NCBI GenBank assembly: GCA_015068905.1
Contig: SVJQ01000003.1
Span: forward strand, 1-64,000
Direction: 5' to 3'
From: Oscillospiraceae bacterium
GTDB lineage: Bacteria; Bacillota; Clostridia; UBA1381; UBA9506
Length of the DNA stretch: 64,000 nt
Shown: one piece after another, positions 28,667-60,420 of the stretch
Layout: every line of letters begins with the position of its first letter
How positions within the stretch are numbered: the first letter of the stretch is position 1
Notes under the pieces: model-generated
Databases searched by the model: none
What the model saw: only the letters and a program-made list of their open reading frames with translations
Told to the model about the DNA's origin: nothing
Position numbers and translations under genes: made by a program

Positions 28667-31600
28667 ATGAAAAATCTCAAAAGACTGATGTCAGTAGTTT
28701 TGAGCGTTGTTATGCTGCTGAGCTTTGTTATCAGCACCAGCGCTGCAACATTCACTGACGTCGCAGAAACTGACAATGCTTTCGAAGCAATCGAAGTTCT
28801 GGCCGCTCTCGAAATCTTAGAGGGTAAAGAAGCTGGCGTATTCGATCCGGAAGCAAACATCAAGAGATCTGAGTTCGCTGCAGTTATCTGCAGAGCTATG
28901 AACCAGTCTCCGGTTGGCGTTGCAACCTTCGTCGATGTTCCCGAAGATCATTGGGCATATGACTACATCGCATGGGCTGCTTCCCAGAACATCGTTAAAG
29001 GTAAAGGCGAAGGCAAGTTCGATCCCGATGCTAACGTTACATACAACGAAGCAATCACCATGATCGTTCGTGCTATGGGCTACGAATACTACGTAGAAGA
29101 ATACCTGGGCGGCTTCCCGACAGGTTACACCAGAATCGCTGGTTCCTACAAAATCGATGCTGGCGTTAACACCTCTAACGGTAACGCAGCTGCTAGCCGT
29201 GCAGACGTTGCACAGTTAGTATACAACGCATTCGAAGCTCCGCTGATGGACTACTCCTACGCTATCGGCAACGATACCGAGTATGTTATCTACAACGGTT
29301 CTAAGAACGTTGACTACGAAAAGAGAACTCTGCTCTCTTACTATGCTGACCTCTACAAGTTCAAAGCAACTGTAGACAACACATTTAAGAACAGCTCCGC
29401 TTTAACTGACGCTCGTGGCAATAAGCTGATGAACTTAACCATCCAGTCTACTTACGGCTTCAAAGCTGACCAGTTATATGATGCATTAGATAAGAGACTT
29501 TCTGCTAACCCCGGCCTTGGCGAAACTAACGCATTAAACAACATTATTGCTAACAATGAAGCTTGGGCTAACTACCAGGGTTACACTGTTGATGCTTACA
29601 TCATTCTGAACGAATCTGGCAAGCTTGAAGTTGTTGCTATGGTTCCTGTTACCGCTTCCGGTACTGAACTGGTTATCGAAAACGCTAAAGAAGCTATCAA
29701 CGTAGCTGATTGGGATGGTACCGACTTAACTTTCGAATATGAAGATGAAAACGGTAAGGAAAGAACTCCTGACATTGCTGAAAACGCTGTTGTATATGTT
29801 AACAATATCGTAGTAGGCGCAATCAATGCTAACGCTACTGCTGAATCTTACTTTGAAGCTTTAGAAACTGGCGCATACCCCAGCGTTACTCTGCTTGATT
29901 CTAATGATGACGGCGTATACGACAAAATCTACATGACCAAATACGTTTACGGTATCGTTGAAGAAGTTGATGCTGATTACGAAGTAATCGAAACAACTGC
30001 TAATGACGTATTTGAACTGTCTGAAGACGACACTAAGGACGGTTTCGTTTACACCATCTACAAAGATGGCGAAGAAATCGCTATCAGCGACCTGGTTGCT
30101 GGCGATATGCTGAACATCGTTATTGGTGATGCAAGTTCAAACATTGCTTATGCTACTTTTGACGATGTTTCCAATGCTACTTTCGCTGACATCTATGTAA
30201 CTAACAACACTATCGAATCCAGCGTATCTTCTGTTGGTGGTCAGGGTACTTCTGCCGATCCCTGGAGATACATGATCGATGGCGAAGAATACTACACAGC
30301 AGCTACCGCTATGTGCGGCACATTAGATCCTGCTGATACCGGTATCTTCTACATCACTATTGATGGTTACATCTATGATGTTGACTTCACAAGCACTCAC
30401 AGCGACAACTACGGTTTCATTCTTGAAATGGGTAAAACCAACACAGCATTTGGTACCACCTGGCAGATCAAACTGTTAGACAAAACCAATACTGTAAAGA
30501 CTCTGAACGTTAAAGATACCCTTTTCGTAACTATCGACAAAGACGTTACAGGTTCTCCTTTAACAGTTACTTCTGTTGCATATGACAGACGTCAGTTCAA
30601 AGCAACTGATGGCAAATTAAATCCGATTATGGAAGAAATTCGCAGCTACACATACGGTACTTCCGCTGCTAATGCTGCTTCAAAGCTTGGTAAGAGAATG
30701 GTAACTTTCAAAGAAGTTAACGGCGAAATCACTGAGCTGGTATTTGCTACCGCATATGCTCCTTCTACTGTTAGAGACTTCAACGTTACTTCTGCTGGTC
30801 CTCAGTACTACAACGGCAAAGCTGGTCGTCTGGGCAACATGGAAATGTTAGACAGCTCTGTTCTGTTCTTCGCTCCTGATGCTGCAGCTGCATATGCTAT
30901 GACTGCTGATGCTGATAACGATGGTACTGATGATTCTTACGAATTAGATGTTGATAAAGTTCAGGTTTACGCTCAGAGCGGCCTGAAAGACACTCAGAAC
31001 TACACTGGTATGCTGTACAATGTTGATGCTAACCGTGCATTCGGTGCTGCGCTGATCACAGCTGGCATGACCTTCGCTGGTGATGCTAACGCTCTGGCAG
31101 TAATCACAAGCGTATCTAAAGGCTTGGATGCAGCTGGCAACAGCACAACTGTTCTGACTCTGATGCAGTCTGGTGAAACCAAGTCTATCGCAGTTAGCGA
31201 TCAGTATAGTGATGCTTTTGATGTAACCAACGCTGATCCTGGTGACGTTATCCAGTACACCTTAAACGCTTCTGAAGAAATCAACAAGATTGAAGCAGTT
31301 TATGACATCTCCGCTAAACAGCTGATGAAGACTGGTACTGCTAACGACATCGAGTTCAAGATGGGTGTTGTTACTGAAAATACCGGCAAGGTAATCGCTC
31401 TGGATCAGAAAGATGTACCTGCAGGTCTTATCACTCCTAGCAATCCTTCTAACGATGCAGTTCTGGCTTGGGATCTGGCTGACGATTGCACAAACGTTCT
31501 GTACAACACAGATCGTGCAGGCAAAGCAAATGCATTCAACGCTAAGAGCGGCACAGCTTACATTAGAGCTTACAAGGCTGACGCTTCTACTGATGCCTTC

Positions 31601-31765
31601 ACAACTGATGCTTACGTAGCAGTTGTAAGAATGGTTGATGGCGTTGTTGTTGACGTAGTTGCTTATCAGTATGCTGAAGATACTCTGCAGACTTATGTAG
31701 ATGCTACCACTACAGCTGCTGAATTCACCGACCTGTTCACAACAGCTGGTGCAATTTACGCTTAA
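28667..31765 (+). CDS. S-layer homology (SLH) domain surface protein
   Basis: 1032 residues. Residues 1-27 are a signal peptide (KRLMSVVLSVVMLLSFVIST, then SAA). Three SLH units follow: FTDVAETDNAFEAIEVLAAL (about 29-75), FVDVPEDHWAYDYIAWAASQ (about 88-135) and a weaker one to about residue 190, which anchor proteins to wall polymers. The rest (about 200-1032) is acidic, Ala/Asp/Thr-rich and beta-rich with no enzyme motif. Codon use is strikingly uniform (GTT, GCT, AAC, GAA), a sign of very high expression, so this is a candidate main S-layer protein. Confidence 0.88.
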   Translation: MKNLKRLMSVVLSVVMLLSFVISTSAATFTDVAETDNAFEAIEVLAALEILEGKEAGVFDPEANIKRSEFAAVICRAMNQSPVGVATFVDVPEDHWAYDYIAWAASQNIVKGKGEGKFDPDANVTYNEAITMIVRAMGYEYYVEEYLGGFPTGYTRIAGSYKIDAGVNTSNGNAAASRADVAQLVYNAFEAPLMDYSYAIGNDTEYVIYNGSKNVDYEKRTLLSYYADLYKFKATVDNTFKNSSALTDARGNKLMNLTIQSTYGFKADQLYDALDKRLSANPGLGETNALNNIIANNEAWANYQGYTVDAYIILNESGKLEVVAMVPVTASGTELVIENAKEAINVADWDGTDLTFEYEDENGKERTPDIAENAVVYVNNIVVGAINANATAESYFEALETGAYPSVTLLDSNDDGVYDKIYMTKYVYGIVEEVDADYEVIETTANDVFELSEDDTKDGFVYTIYKDGEEIAISDLVAGDMLNIVIGDASSNIAYATFDDVSNATFADIYVTNNTIESSVSSVGGQGTSADPWRYMIDGEEYYTAATAMCGTLDPADTGIFYITIDGYIYDVDFTSTHSDNYGFILEMGKTNTAFGTTWQIKLLDKTNTVKTLNVKDTLFVTIDKDVTGSPLTVTSVAYDRRQFKATDGKLNPIMEEIRSYTYGTSAANAASKLGKRMVTFKEVNGEITELVFATAYAPSTVRDFNVTSAGPQYYNGKAGRLGNMEMLDSSVLFFAPDAAAAYAMTADADNDGTDDSYELDVDKVQVYAQSGLKDTQNYTGMLYNVDANRAFGAALITAGMTFAGDANALAVITSVSKGLDAAGNSTTVLTLMQSGETKSIAVSDQYSDAFDVTNADPGDVIQYTLNASEEINKIEAVYDISAKQLMKTGTANDIEFKMGVVTENTGKVIALDQKDVPAGLITPSNPSNDAVLAWDLADDCTNVLYNTDRAGKANAFNAKSGTAYIRAYKADASTDAFTTDAYVAVVRMVDGVVVDVVAYQYAEDTLQTYVDATTTAAEFTDLFTTAGAIYA

Positions 31766-31837: not shown

Positions 31838-32335
31838 CTTGGCTCCCTCATCAAAGGGAGCTGTCGAACGTAGTGAGACTGAGGGAGAGAAAATGACATT
31901 GAAAAATGTTGGTGCGGAGGATTCTCACAACATTGTAGGGGAGGGTCTCCGCGCCCTCCCGAAGGACGGGCGGGGCTGGAATCCCGCCCCTACGATATAG
32001 ATGAATGTTTGTAGGGGTCATTCACGAATGACCCGCGGGCGATTCTTGAATCGCCCCTACATTTTTTATACCGTAACCGTAGGGCAGGGGCTTGCTCCTG
32101 CCGAAAAAGCCTTCCCCTTTGGAGCACTGTCTAAATCTATGATTTAGCAAACAGTGCCCATGGCAAAACGTCCCAAGAGCGCGTAGCGCGATTGGATGAC
32201 GTTGACGGCTGAGGGGAAGGGGGACCACCATAGGTGGTGGGTGAGGTGGAAATGTAGGGAATGGCGGTTTCCGACATTCCAAAAGCGGTGCATCGTAAAC
32301 GCTGCACCCTGCTACACCTCATCAGTCTCGCTTGC
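31838..32335. repeat. Block of modular palindromic repeats
   Basis: Holds a GGCTCCCTC...GAGGGAG unit (31841-31888), a long GTAGGGG...CCCCTAC unit (31935-32060) with inner palindromes GGGTCATTCACGAATGACCC and GGGCGATTCTTGAATCGCCC, and a CTTCCCCTTTGGAG unit with its complement GAGGGGAAGG (about 32108-32220). Short open frames here are products of the repeats, not genes. Confidence 0.75.
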
Positions 32336-34249: not shown

Positions 34250-35596
34250 ATGAAGCCAAAAAATATATATCAAATGTATTTGCGAATGTTCACACCGTCA
34301 GGCACTCTTGCCGCAGCGGAAGAAATGATTCCTTATCTTGCTGATTTGGGCATTGATTGCATATATTTAAGCGCCTTAAATCAGGCAGATGATGCGCAGG
34401 AGGGTCAAAGCCCCAGACAGCTTAAATCAGGCATTGGCAACCCCAAAAACCCGTACCGCATCACGGATTATTATGCTGTTGATGAGGAATATGGCAATAT
34501 GGAGGATTTGAAGCGTTTTGTGGAGTCCTGTCATCGTGCGAATATTAAGGTTTTAATTGACCTTGTGTATATGCATTGCGGTCCGAATGCTGTTTTCATT
34601 AAGGAACATCCCAATTTTGTCAAGCGCGACGAGAACGGAGACATTCAGTGTACAAGCTATGGCTTTCCTCTCATTAACATTGATAATCCCGAACTTAGAG
34701 AATATCTGTGGGCGAATATGGAATTCTATCTGACCGAGATTAAGGCAGACGGCTTCCGCTGCGATGTGGCAGAAGAGGTTCCCTTAGACTTCTGGAAAGA
34801 GGCTGTTCGTCGCTTAAAGAAAATTAAACCCGATTTAATTATGCTTGACGAGGGTGGAATCCCTGATTATTTAGAGGCTTTTGACCTTTTGTATGGTGGC
34901 GGTCTTGAGGGCGCTATCAATCGTGTATTCCACAACAAGCAAAATTCCAAAAAGGCACACAAGGTGGATGCTTACCACTTCCGCCCGTTAGATGCCGAAA
35001 CGGTATACAATGCTGAACACATTCGCACAGCTTGGGAGAAATCCCACGAAAAAACGCCCCTGTGTTCTTCGCTGAATCAGGTAGAAAACCACGACATTGC
35101 AAATGATGCTTACTATGAGCGTTCAGAGGCTCATTTGGGCCACGACGCTGTTGAGGCAATGCTGGCACTTATCTTTACCTTTGATGGCATTCCAATGATT
35201 TTCAACGGCATGGAATTTGCCGACAGCGGCAGACGAACCCTTTGGTACAGCCGCTTTTATTCAGGTGCAATGGTAATTGATTGGAGCAAGCTGGCAACAG
35301 CCGCCGGTCGGGAGCGCTTTGCAATGGTTAAACACATGATTGCTATGAGAAACGGCAGAAAATCTCTGACAGAGGGCGACCTTTCCTGGACAGAACACGA
35401 CAACACCAAAAATGTTCTCGGCTTTACAAGATGCCATGAGCAGGAAAAAACACAGGTGTTTGTCAATGTGACAGCCAAGGTGCAAAAAACAAAAGTGCAG
35501 GGGCCGTTGCCGGGGAAAATTCTGGCCAGCAAAAACGCCTATGTACAGAATGGCTCGATTACGTTGCTGCCCTATGGTTATTTGATTACAGAATAA
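34250..35596 (+). CDS. GH13 alpha-glucanase-family glycosidase
   Basis: 448 residues, cytoplasmic (no signal peptide). The four GH13 regions are visible: KVLIDLVYMHCG (region I, where His lies close to the usual place), GFRCDVAEEV (region II, nucleophile Asp), IMLDEGGIP (region III, acid/base Glu) and VENHDIAND (region IV, Asp). It probably acts on alpha-glucan oligosaccharides. The precise specificity cannot be told. It has no close partner genes. Confidence 0.85.
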   Translation: MKPKNIYQMYLRMFTPSGTLAAAEEMIPYLADLGIDCIYLSALNQADDAQEGQSPRQLKSGIGNPKNPYRITDYYAVDEEYGNMEDLKRFVESCHRANIKVLIDLVYMHCGPNAVFIKEHPNFVKRDENGDIQCTSYGFPLINIDNPELREYLWANMEFYLTEIKADGFRCDVAEEVPLDFWKEAVRRLKKIKPDLIMLDEGGIPDYLEAFDLLYGGGLEGAINRVFHNKQNSKKAHKVDAYHFRPLDAETVYNAEHIRTAWEKSHEKTPLCSSLNQVENHDIANDAYYERSEAHLGHDAVEAMLALIFTFDGIPMIFNGMEFADSGRRTLWYSRFYSGAMVIDWSKLATAAGRERFAMVKHMIAMRNGRKSLTEGDLSWTEHDNTKNVLGFTRCHEQEKTQVFVNVTAKVQKTKVQGPLPGKILASKNAYVQNGSITLLPYGYLITE

Positions 35597-35599
35597 AGA

Positions 35600-35767
35600 A
35601 CGGGCGGGATGAATCCCGCCCCTACGATATATGTCAATAATTGCAGGGGTCATCCGTGGGTGACCCCTGTATTTTTTCGCGTGCCACAAACGTAGGGCAG
35701 GGGCTTGCTCCTGCCGAAACGGTGTCACATTCTGTGACAAAACGGACGAGCAAGCCCATTCCCTACA
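35600..35767. repeat. Modular palindromic repeat, second copy
   Basis: Contains GGGCGGGATGAATCCCGCCC, AGGGGTCATC...GGTGACCCCT and a CGTAGGGCAGGGGCTTGCTC unit closed by CCCTAC. Same modules as the blocks at 31.9 and 36.1 kb. It ends next to the promoter of the structured RNA. Confidence 0.75.
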
Positions 35768-35774
35768 ATTTTTC

Positions 35775-35803
35775 TTGCCAAACGTAATAACATATGATAT
35801 AAT
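35775..35803 (+). promoter_or_regulatory. Promoter of the structured RNA
   Basis: TTGCCA (35775-35780) and TATAAT (35798-35803), 17-bp spacer; the expected start is at about 35810, the first bases of the closing stem. Confidence 0.75.
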
Positions 35804-35808
35804 AAATA

Positions 35809-35976
35809 TGCTACACAAGTACATAATGATTAAGTCAATAGTGGATGTATTTTTTTACCTTTTGGTAAAAATGCATGCTCTATTTTCACATCCCTGTTGG
35901 CTTGTCGAAATACTTGTGTAGCAACAAAGTGAGCCATGCATTTTTCATGCGTCGGCTCTGGTCGGCGCATTTTTTA
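35809..35976 (+). ncRNA. Structured small RNA, family not identified
   Basis: A perfect 13-bp closing stem (35809-35821 with 35911-35923) starts at the promoter start point. Inside is a second long stem: AAGTCAATAG against CTGTTGGCTT, extended by GGATGT/ACATCC, and an apical hairpin TTTTTACC/GGTAAAAA. After the fold a hairpin with wobble pairs (ATGCGTCGGC/GTCGGCGCAT, about 35947-35970) is followed by TTTTTT, a terminator. No reading frame with a ribosome site lies in it. The rod with an internal bulge recalls 6S RNA, but it is shorter than usual. Confidence 0.65.
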
Positions 35977-36032
35977 ATGCACGGAAAAACATCTCCTTTT
36001 GGAGAATGGTTTGTTTCTCATTTTCACACACG

Positions 36033-36062
36033 AAAAAGGGCGGTTTAAACCGCCCTTTTTCC
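36033..36062. terminator. Palindromic terminator
   Basis: AAAAAGGGCGG and CCGCCCTTTTT around TTTAAA; it works in both directions. No gene is immediately upstream except the structured RNA. Confidence 0.8.
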
Positions 36063-36068
36063 TTTTGT

Positions 36069-36390
36069 GCAGGGGAGGGTCTTTGCGCCCTTCCGAAAGA
36101 TGGGCGGGATGAATCCCGCCCCTACGATATATGAATGTTTGTAGGGGTCATTCACGAATGAACCGCGGGCGATTCTTGAATCGCCCCTACAATTTTTGCT
36201 TTTGTGCGCCGCAATCGTAGGGCAGGGGCTTGCTCCTGCCGAAGCGGTATCACATTCTGCGCTAAAACGGAACGAGCAAGCCCGTTCCCTACAAAATTTG
36301 TGTAATTTACGGTAACCCGTAGGGGAGGGTCTCTGCGCCCCCTACGATATATGAATGTTTGTAGGGGTCATTCGTGAATCGCCCCTACAT
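36069..36390. repeat. Modular palindromic repeats, third and fourth copies
   Basis: 36069-36292 is a full set of modules; 36318-36388 is a shortened copy that jumps from GGTCTCTGCGCCC straight to CCTACGATATATGAATG and lacks the inner ...GACCCGCGGGCGATTC part, as expected of recombination between short repeats. The block lies between two terminators and holds no gene. Confidence 0.75.
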
Positions 36391-36408
36391 TTTTATGCTT
36401 TTAGGCAC

Positions 36409-36453: not shown

Positions 36454-38241
36454 TTAGTTCAGCTTTGCTTTTAAGGTATTTAAAGATTCAGCCAGTTCAG
36501 CAGGCAGCTTGTCGCCGAAGGTAGAAGCGAAGAATTCTTCAATGTCTTTTGCTTCTGCTGTCCAAACGTCTTTATCAACGTTTAACAGTTCAGCTAAGAT
36601 GTCAGCATTTACATCATCTAAGCCTTCGATGTCGATGTCGCCAGCGTTGGGAACATAACCGATAGCAGTTTCCTTAGCGTCAACCTTACCTTCGCAACGA
36701 TCCAGAATCCAGTTCAGAACGCGCATGTTGTCGCCGAAGCCGGGCCACATGAAGTTGCCTTCATCGTCCAGACGGAACCAGTTAACGTTAAAGATTTTCG
36801 GAGCCTTGTCACCCAGCTTGTCGCCCATGTCGAGCCAGTGCTGGAAGTATTCAGCCATGTGGTAACCGCAGAAGGGACGCATAGCCATGGGGTCATGACG
36901 AACAACGCCAACCTTACCGGTTGCAGCAGCGGTGGTTTCAGAAGCCATAACCGCACCAACGAATACACCGTGATCCCAATCTCTTGACTGGTAAACCAAC
37001 GGAGCAGCCTTAGCACGACGGCCACCGAATACGATTGCGGAGATGGGCACGCCCTTACCGGAATTGAATTCAGAGCTGATGCAGGGGCAGTTTTCAGCCG
37101 GAGCTGTAAATCTTGAGTTGGGATGAGCACCACTTGTGCCAACCTTGTCAGCCTTGTCGTACTTTTTGTAATCCCACTCTTCGCCACGCCAGTTCAGAGC
37201 GTTTGTCGGCGGATTGTCGTTTAAGCCTTCCCACCAAACTTCGTTGGTGTCAAGGTCGTGAGCAACGTTTGTAAAGATGGTGTTCTTGCGGGTAGAAGCC
37301 AGCGCGTTGGGGTTAGATTTATCGTTAGTACCGGGAGCAACACCGAAGAAACCGTTTTCGGGGTTGATTGCCCACAGTCTGCCGTCTTCGCCGATACGCA
37401 TCCAAGCGATATCGTCACCAACGCACCAAACTTTGTAACCCTGTTTGCGATATTTTTCAGGCGGAATCAGCATAGCCAGGTTGGTCTTACCACAAGCAGA
37501 GGGGAATGCAGCAGCAATGTACTTAACTTCACCCTTGGGATTTTCCAGACCTAAGATGAGCATGTGCTCAGCCATCCAGCCTTCGTTTTTACCTAAGAAA
37601 GAAGCGATACGCAGAGCGAAGCACTTTTTACCTAAAAGAACGTTACCGCCGTAACCGGAGTTAACAGAGATAATGGTGTTATCTTCGGGGAAGTGGCAGA
37701 TGTATCTCTTGGATTCATCAATTTCGCATCTGCAGTGAAGGCCCTTAATCCAGTCTTCGCTGTCGCCTAAAGCGTCTAAAACATCATTACCAACACGGGT
37801 CATGATTGCCATGTTCAGTACAACGTAGATAGAGTCAGTCAGCTCGATACCGATTTTAGAAAATTCGGAACCAACGGGACCCATGGAGTAGGGGATAACA
37901 TACATGGTTCTGCCCTTGTATGAATCTTTAGCGATGTCATACAGCATTTTGTATGCTTCCTGAGGATCCATCCAGTTGTTGGTGGGGCCAGCTGCCTCTT
38001 TGGTTTTAGCACAGATAAAGGTTCTGTCCTCAACACGGGCAACGTCGTTCACTGCGGTGCGGTGCAGATAGCAACCGGGCAGTGTTTCTTCGTTCAGTTT
38101 AATCATTTCGCCTGTGGAGCAAGCTTCAGCACGGAGCTTTTCATAAAGCTCTTCACTACCGTCGATAACAACAACGTTATCGGGTTTAACGAGTGCTTTC
38201 ATCTCTTCAATCCAGGCATTTACGGATTTGTTTTTGATCAT
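36454..38241 (-). CDS. pckG: Phosphoenolpyruvate carboxykinase (GTP)
   Basis: 595 residues. The ATG at 38241, eight bases after GGAG, is chosen over a GTG that overlaps it. The P-loop FPSACGKTNLAML and the metal/GTP motif VWCVGDDIAWM, along with FGGRRAKAAPLVYQSRDW, identify the GTP-dependent family. It interconverts oxaloacetate and phosphoenolpyruvate. Codon bias suggests high expression. It stands alone between two terminators or promoters. Confidence 0.96.
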   Translation of the reverse strand: MIKNKSVNAWIEEMKALVKPDNVVVIDGSEELYEKLRAEACSTGEMIKLNEETLPGCYLHRTAVNDVARVEDRTFICAKTKEAAGPTNNWMDPQEAYKMLYDIAKDSYKGRTMYVIPYSMGPVGSEFSKIGIELTDSIYVVLNMAIMTRVGNDVLDALGDSEDWIKGLHCRCEIDESKRYICHFPEDNTIISVNSGYGGNVLLGKKCFALRIASFLGKNEGWMAEHMLILGLENPKGEVKYIAAAFPSACGKTNLAMLIPPEKYRKQGYKVWCVGDDIAWMRIGEDGRLWAINPENGFFGVAPGTNDKSNPNALASTRKNTIFTNVAHDLDTNEVWWEGLNDNPPTNALNWRGEEWDYKKYDKADKVGTSGAHPNSRFTAPAENCPCISSEFNSGKGVPISAIVFGGRRAKAAPLVYQSRDWDHGVFVGAVMASETTAAATGKVGVVRHDPMAMRPFCGYHMAEYFQHWLDMGDKLGDKAPKIFNVNWFRLDDEGNFMWPGFGDNMRVLNWILDRCEGKVDAKETAIGYVPNAGDIDIEGLDDVNADILAELLNVDKDVWTAEAKDIEEFFASTFGDKLPAELAESLNTLKAKLN

Positions 38242-38566
38242 TCCTAACACTCCTTTTGAAAAATTTGTTAAACATCTATGATGTCAGAGATGTCAGGACG
38301 AAGTCCATTCAATCTCAGCGTTTACATAAATCGTTTAAAGTGGGAAAAGTCAATTCCCCCTCAGTATGAAAGTATACCACAAATTGGTTTCAATTTCAAG
38401 TAATTTGGTGCATTATTTTAATTTTTATTCACAAATACCTGCAAATTTTTTTGTAAACACATTCTTTTTGACATTTTTCGTGATTCTGCACAGAAGTAAC
38501 AAAGGATTTACTTTTTGCAGGGTGTGTGTTACAATATAGTCATAACCGACAAAGTGGGTGAAAAGT
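38242..38566. other. Divergent promoter region between pckG and an AraC gene
   Basis: Minus strand TTGAAA (38394-38399) and TATACT (38371-38376), 17-bp spacer, serve pckG with a leader of about 120 bases. Plus strand TTTACT (38507-38512) and TACAAT (38530-38535), 17-bp spacer, serve the AraC gene. No gene or RNA is seen between. Confidence 0.7.
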
Positions 38567-56119: not shown

Positions 56120-56405
56120 TGAAAATAAAAAAGTCCTCTGCAATCCTGTTTCAGGATACAGAGGACGAAAATAACATTTCCGTGGTACCACCTCAGTTCG
56201 CCGCTATCTCACGGTAGCGACCTTATCAGGTACTGGCATACCTTAGTTCTGTAACGGGAACACCCGTTGCCTCCTACTTAAGACGAATCTTGTTCAGTGC
56301 ACTGCTAACAGAAGGAATTCGTGAAGGACGCCCCATTTGCCTCGCACCAACCGGCAACTCTCTCCATGTTCTTTCCAACCTACTGGTTTCTGATCTTCGC
56401 ATTTA
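56120..56405 (-). promoter_or_regulatory. T-box leader, probable phenylalanine specifier
   Basis: On the minus strand, stem I starts with GCGAAGATCAGAA and carries the AGAGAG and GGTGCGAGGC elements. The T-box GAGGTGGTACCACGG is at about 56181-56196 and a terminator (GTCCTCTG...CAGAGGAC, 56133-56166 with T run) follows. The specifier position, just before the closing TTCTG strand, reads GAA-TTC, so TTC (Phe) is the best reading. Uncharged tRNA-Phe would switch on the aromatic operon. Confidence 0.92.
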
Positions 56406-56413
56406 ATGAATAA

Positions 56414-60133: not shown

Positions 60134-60214
60134 TGTGTTTTTCTGTGATGGTCACATTTTGCTTTTACAAACAAAAAAGTCACCGCTGTGCACAGGGTGC
60201 ACCGACAAGATAAC

Positions 60215-60420
60215 ATCAAAGCAGGTCTTGTGACTTACGCCATATAGATTTCTCCGCATTTTTGCACCCTGCCTTCGCGGTTTCCCACTGACCGGCTTTC
60301 GCCAACGGATGCAAAAACTTTGGCGCATACACCGACAGTTATCGCAGGGGATTCTCACCCCATTCCCTTTTCACCGGCTATGCCTTGCTTGCGCTTTTGC
60401 GGCATAACCAACACTTTGTG
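60215..60420 (-). promoter_or_regulatory. Cobalamin riboswitch
   Basis: On the minus strand the leader has GGTGAAAAGGGAA, GGTGAGAATCCCCTGC, CCGGTCAGTGGGAAACCGCG and the B12 box AAGTCACAAGACCTGC (complement of 60221-60236), in the order of the cobalamin aptamer. It is followed by the terminator, so ligand binding should reduce transporter expression. Confidence 0.92.

Follow-up and report, generated by a model that had tools for sequence, protein, structure and literature searches.

The window, meaning the whole 64,000-nt stretch of Oscillospiraceae bacterium DNA that was analysed, carries an intergenic structured RNA between an alpha-amylase-like gene and a convergent phosphoenolpyruvate carboxykinase-like gene. 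The following features were assigned (coordinates, strand, feature, basis).

34250-35596, +, alpha-amylase-like gene, upstream flank (ORF)
35775-35803, +, promoter (-35 TTGCCA at 35775-35780, 17-nt spacer, extended -10 TATGATATAAT at 35793-35803)
35809-35976, +, structured RNA of ~167 nt (fold z -7.65; family model R1, 153.3 bits)
35809-35821 / 35911-35923, +, closing stem P1 (13 pairs by reading the sequence)
35822-35826, +, internal-loop sequence between P1 and P2, family consensus UnAAUA (unpaired, conserved)
35827-35848 / 35888-35907, +, stem P2 (fold and covariation)
35852-35871, +, AU-rich apical hairpin P3, UUUUUACC-UUUU-GGUAAAAA (fold and covariation)
35867-35880, +, pseudoknot 5' strand AAAAAUGCAUGCUC (covariation; own versus swapped strands)
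35931-35945, +, pseudoknot 3' strand GAGCCAUGCAUUUUU, doubling as antiterminator 5' strand (pseudoknot by covariation, antiterminator by own versus swapped energies)
35931-35941 / 35947-35958, +, alternative antiterminator hairpin (own versus swapped energies)
35947-35975, +, terminator T1 (hairpin 35947-35970 and T6)
35977-36031, +, T1-T2 spacer (predicted to pair, on read-through, with the RNA's 3' half)
36032-36061, +, second terminator T2 (terminator prediction)
36454-38250, -, phosphoenolpyruvate carboxykinase-like gene, convergent, context only (ORF; identity by reading the sequence)

No sense-oriented gene lies behind the window copy. The earlier note had placed the RNA alone in a repeat-filled gap, and this description fits: the position is intergenic between the two flanking genes, and dispersed repeats are present. 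These repeats, of the GTAGGGGAGGGTCTCTGCGCCCTCCC and GTAGGGCAGGGGCTTGCTCCTGCCG types, were located at window positions 35602-35768, 36090-36400 and 31951-32105, and occur at approximately 20 places in the genome, several of them adjacent to further family copies (C1, C5, C9 and C14). Elsewhere, the window contains a T-box leader and a cobalamin riboswitch (56158-56406 and 60203-60413, both on the minus strand) and an ORF (28667-31765) for a large secreted protein, whose N-terminus is S-layer-homology-like as judged by reading the ORF.

The promoter (TTGCCA-17-TATAAT with a TG extension) has 11 of 12 consensus matches, in agreement with the well-formed -35/-10 pair noted before, and the -35 TTG / TRTGnTATAAT spacing is conserved ahead of 178 family copies. 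The fold of the window RNA was computed at -62.3 kcal/mol, compared with -34.4 +/- 3.7 for shuffled sequences, and was equalled by 0 of 200 shuffles. The perfect 13-bp closing stem described from the transcription start was recovered by reading the sequence; a computed fold begun at 35810 contains 12 of these pairs. P2 was also present as described, but with 20 pairs in the minimum-free-energy fold, not the 16 counted previously, and its upper part varies in length among copies. The AT-rich apical hairpin was confirmed by the fold, and the proposed terminator by a hairpin followed by T6. The earlier proposal, a structured RNA that fits no family and brings along a promoter and a terminator, is thus supported, with no Rfam match and with strong compensatory change. 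Two of the outcomes named in the earlier note as refuting, an Rfam hit and a lack of covariation, were looked for and did not occur.

Covariation of the helices and the pseudoknot

Covariance model R1 was built from 42 copies. The search for compensatory changes suggested in the earlier note was positive; strong changes were found in relatives' copies and every helix was supported. When the P1+P2+P3 core, the pseudoknot and T1 were scored together in the 42 copies, 93.8% of cells were paired and two-sided changes occurred in 28 of 44 pairs, values reached by 0 of 500 shuffles. Shifting the strands by 1-3 columns lowered pairing in these copies to 31-51%. For P1, 7 of 10 pairs showed compensatory changes in alignment A1 and 10 of 10 in the class-level set A5, which was fitted to P1; the equivalent value for T1 was 6-7 of 9 pairs in A1 and A5. 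P1, P2, P3 and T1 were 97.5% paired in 48 class-level copies, in an alignment that was fitted to R1 and whose counts lean toward the model. Unpaired positions of the UnAAUA loop were 79-98% conserved in 48 class-level copies, and a conserved unpaired UUU follows the pseudoknot 5' strand. The loop is a possible tertiary or ligand/protein site, and both unpaired elements are candidates for parts of a binding site.

A 14-bp pseudoknot, absent from the earlier note, pairs 35867-35880 with 35931-35945 (GAGC-C-AUGCAUUUUU). It joins the apical strand to the segment directly before the terminator and is backed by compensatory changes. In the 48 class-level copies, which were found with R1, a model that omits the pseudoknot, 91.9% of cells were paired and two-sided cells numbered 38, compared with 14.9 in shuffles (0 of 500 reaching this value). 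When the energy of each copy's own strands was compared with that of strands swapped between copies, z was -11.4 for the pseudoknot and -22.9 for the terminator.

The run of five A in the AAAAAUGCAUGCUC strand is common to P3, where it pairs with five U, and to the pseudoknot; P3 and the pseudoknot must therefore exchange. A U-A-U triple helix formed by the conserved U5/A5/U5 tracts was also considered and set aside. Strand exchange appears to be the simpler reading, because the A tract can form antiparallel pairs with either U tract.

Copies in relatives and their downstream genes

Searches by blastn against 61 relatives gave matches in 30 genomes, 16 of them in one genome. R1 identified 10 copies in the genome of the window, copies in 18 of 20 genomes of the same GTDB family (up to 27 per genome), and, at E <= 1e-10, copies in 25 of 118 genomes sampled from the class. 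In a 299-genome sample of the phylum, searched with stricter filters, no genome other than the window's own was found, which makes this sample a good negative control. An exact 20-base pattern occurred in 93 stretches from named genomes, nearly all Clostridia/Oscillospiraceae MAGs and mostly from ruminant gut, and R1 recognised all but one of 80 such loci searched. The R1-negative exception, a Hahella contig, looks like a chance match to the pattern. A phage or plasmid origin was rejected, the exact pattern having no match in viral contigs and likewise none in plasmids. One leader copy was seen before a zinc-ribbon membrane protein on an unverified 6.5-kb 'phage' scaffold that looks chromosomal.

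Leader and stand-alone copies were called automatically, and the class numbers are approximate because a few leader ORFs are doubtful and a few genes were missed among the remainder: a ribosome-binding site and start codon lay at most 50 nt past the terminator in 88 of 179 distinct copies, with the start codon 15-29 nt past it in 78 of the 179. The next gene was on the strand of the RNA in 73 of 84 cases. BspA LRR_5 proteins were encoded downstream in 18 of 84; other products comprised Cu-amine-oxidase-N, AMP-binding enzymes, HTH regulators, SLH, lipoproteins, DUF6809 and small proteins. By an in-house heuristic, approximately half of the downstream products have a signal-peptide- or membrane-like N-terminus. 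A protein family of ~40-50 aa (MPDYKSMYLDLFNSVTDAIEVL...) was observed directly behind the RNA at L013, L019, L026, L039 and L070 (no Pfam family for the L013 and L019 members), and another of ~77 aa (MNIKVELLKNYISDFINFKIEDFEIDASQIADTTA...) repeatedly so, at L144, L106, L154 and L105 (no Pfam match for the L144 member).

T2, a feature likewise missing from the earlier note, has counterparts in 42 of the 67 copies for which no downstream gene was called. A convergent gene came next in 32 of 41 second-terminator copies, the group to which the window copy belongs. Pairing scores between the spacer and the RNA were 24.8 for a copy's own RNA, 22.8 for swapped and ~17 for shuffled sequences in the stand-alone class. 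The spacer as copy-specific antisense of its own RNA was rejected on these scores, which allow at most family-level complementarity. Stand-alone spacers often hold a contiguous near-antisense of the family P1 3' strand and pseudoknot 3' strand (TGCAGGCTCTGTTATTGCGACACAAA), for example at L034:1521-1760, L032, L203 and L077. Tandem stand-alone copies within one genome were seen at L005, L036, L035 and G015:C9:8559-9184; at L005 and L035 the whole unit of promoter, RNA, T1, spacer and T2 is repeated.

Proposed attenuation and alternative readings

As in an attenuator, the promoter of leader copies is separated from the ribosome-binding site by an intrinsic terminator, an arrangement that the window copy lacks. 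A predicted mutually exclusive antiterminator, which the earlier note did not contain, shares a strand with the upstream domain: the pseudoknot 3' strand can also pair with the T1 5' arm, and the shared strand gives transcription-attenuator logic. Own strands paired better than swapped strands (z -6.7), compared with z -2.6 to +0.7 for four controls (reversed, complemented and neighbouring strands); part of this signal is relatedness, because reversed strands, too, score slightly below zero (z -2.6). The signal was z -4.7 in leader copies and z -5.0 in stand-alone copies. Column-wise covariation of the antiterminator did not exceed that of shuffles, possibly because the length of the outer arm differs among copies. 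Mean energies were -16.1 for the terminator and -9.0 for the antiterminator; the terminator is ~7 kcal/mol more stable, as expected if the antiterminator acts only during transcription.

We favour, with a probability of roughly 0.7, the reading that the RNA belongs to a new family of attenuators (orphan riboswitch-like) of the class Clostridia, with the pseudoknot as the deciding element and the window copy as a stand-alone member. Members of the family probably switch transcription on or off, often ahead of genes for surface proteins. Transcription would begin at P1, and P1, P2 and P3 then fold and offer AAAAAUGCAUGCUC in the apical loop, as covariation shows. The emerging GAGCxAUGCAUUUUU segment would have two mutually exclusive partners. 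Pairing with the apical strand would form the pseudoknot, leave the terminator hairpin free and stop transcription at ~167 nt; were the pseudoknot blocked or slow, the segment would pair with the T1 5' arm and transcription would go on. Read-through would, in roughly half of the copies, reach a gene with a ribosome-binding site directly behind the terminator. In stand-alone copies, including that of the window, it would stop at T2, and noncoding transcripts of ~167 and ~250 nt are predicted. Attenuation at the window locus would control RNA length alone, because no sense gene follows. The data show the helices and the pseudoknot, conservation of the promoter and terminators, and the placement of genes; we infer that pseudoknot formation is the off direction, that a signal controls the switch, and that stand-alone copies have a function as RNAs, for instance as decoys.

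The window copy and the stand-alone class could be primarily trans-acting small RNAs, serving as factor decoys or base-pairing to other copies by way of the exposed apical strand, with the terminator merely a 3' end and no switching at the window locus. This is a possible but rather unlikely account. It agrees with the missing sense gene, T2 behind T1 and the convergent gene next, with the conservation of stand-alone copies and their tandem duplication in one genome, and with the stable fold and strong promoter; against it, stand-alone copies hold antiterminator complementarity equal to that of leaders, which a plain small RNA does not need. It is improbable that the element is a spreading or mobile promoter-plus-terminator cassette that lands before genes without regulated switching. 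Such a cassette would suit the very diverse following genes, the joint movement of promoter and RNA, and the many copies per genome, but a promoter with a terminator immediately behind it serves no purpose unless that block is lifted, the pseudoknot and antiterminator with their one common strand are maintained, and terminal repeats or a transposase association were not noticed.

A shortened 6S RNA is refuted. The long rod and the closing stem at the transcription start are 6S-like, but the comparison with 6S RNA fails: an unmistakable 6S RNA is encoded on another contig of this genome (G000:C4:48261-48447, 99.7 bits), so the window RNA is not 6S; RF00013 has no match in the window, and the pseudoknot and leader placement are foreign to 6S. 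Equally implausible is a small-protein gene or type I toxin in the 31-codon hydrophobic frame from 35826 in the rod: the open frame MIKSIVDVFFYLLVKMHALFSHPCWLVEILV is present in the window copy, but a ribosome-binding site is absent, and the start codon and frame are lost in aligned copies while pairing stays. A 23-codon ORF behind T1 was rejected, as the frame is not kept and there is no ribosome-binding site.

Relation to known RNAs and significance

The view that no known family fits was borne out by cmscan, which gave no Rfam match at or above the gathering threshold over the RNA in the window or at 20 other loci. The scan of the window returned only a T-box, tRNA and cobalamin riboswitch, all away from the RNA, and the 20 loci with other copies plus the window, searched against Rfam 15, returned only tRNA, T-box, cobalamin and L10 leader, all elsewhere. 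A permissive Rfam search over the locus gave sub-threshold matches only, the best over the RNA body being rliE (23.1 of 90 bits). No description of the family was found in the openly searchable literature, short of very recent work. The RNA family is apparently uncatalogued, and new within a known kind, the transcription attenuators.

With preQ1 and fluoride riboswitches the family shares the leader position, a pseudoknot strand exchanged with an antiterminator, and an intrinsic terminator near the ribosome-binding site. It differs in fold and sequence (no Rfam match), and in having very diverse downstream genes, many stand-alone copies and no known ligand. The c-di-GMP riboswitches of Clostridia (GEMM-I, RF01051; c-di-GMP-II, RF01786) occur several per genome before surface-protein genes, and multiple genome copies ahead of surface-protein genes are found here too. 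RF01051 and RF01786 had no match in the window or the 20 other-copy loci. c-di-GMP as the signal was tentatively set aside, as the GGDEF count does not appear to track the RNA count: no GGDEF protein was seen in G016 (11 copies of the RNA) or G014 (4 copies), two incomplete genomes. In EutX and Rli55, a riboswitch-type element acts as a free-standing decoy RNA ending at its own terminator. The stand-alone RNAs described here resemble these in being free-standing, riboswitch-type and closed by their own terminator, whereas ANTAR hairpins and a cobalamin aptamer were not found here and a decoy role is hypothetical.

A structured RNA that occurs hundreds of times among uncultured gut Clostridia, as often as 27 times in one genome, that Rfam lacks and that lies ahead of genes for adhesin-like BspA proteins, lipoproteins and uncharacterised small proteins would be of major regulatory importance in the gut bacteria of ruminants and humans. 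It raises a riboswitch-type question, that of the ligand or factor, and, thanks to the strand that the pseudoknot shares, two-base mutations can put the switching hypothesis to a direct test. Tentatively, the RNAs may form a new signal-sensing class of gut Clostridia (at most 27 copies per genome) that coordinates a surface- and secreted-protein regulon, with free-standing copies as decoys or timers for the leaders.
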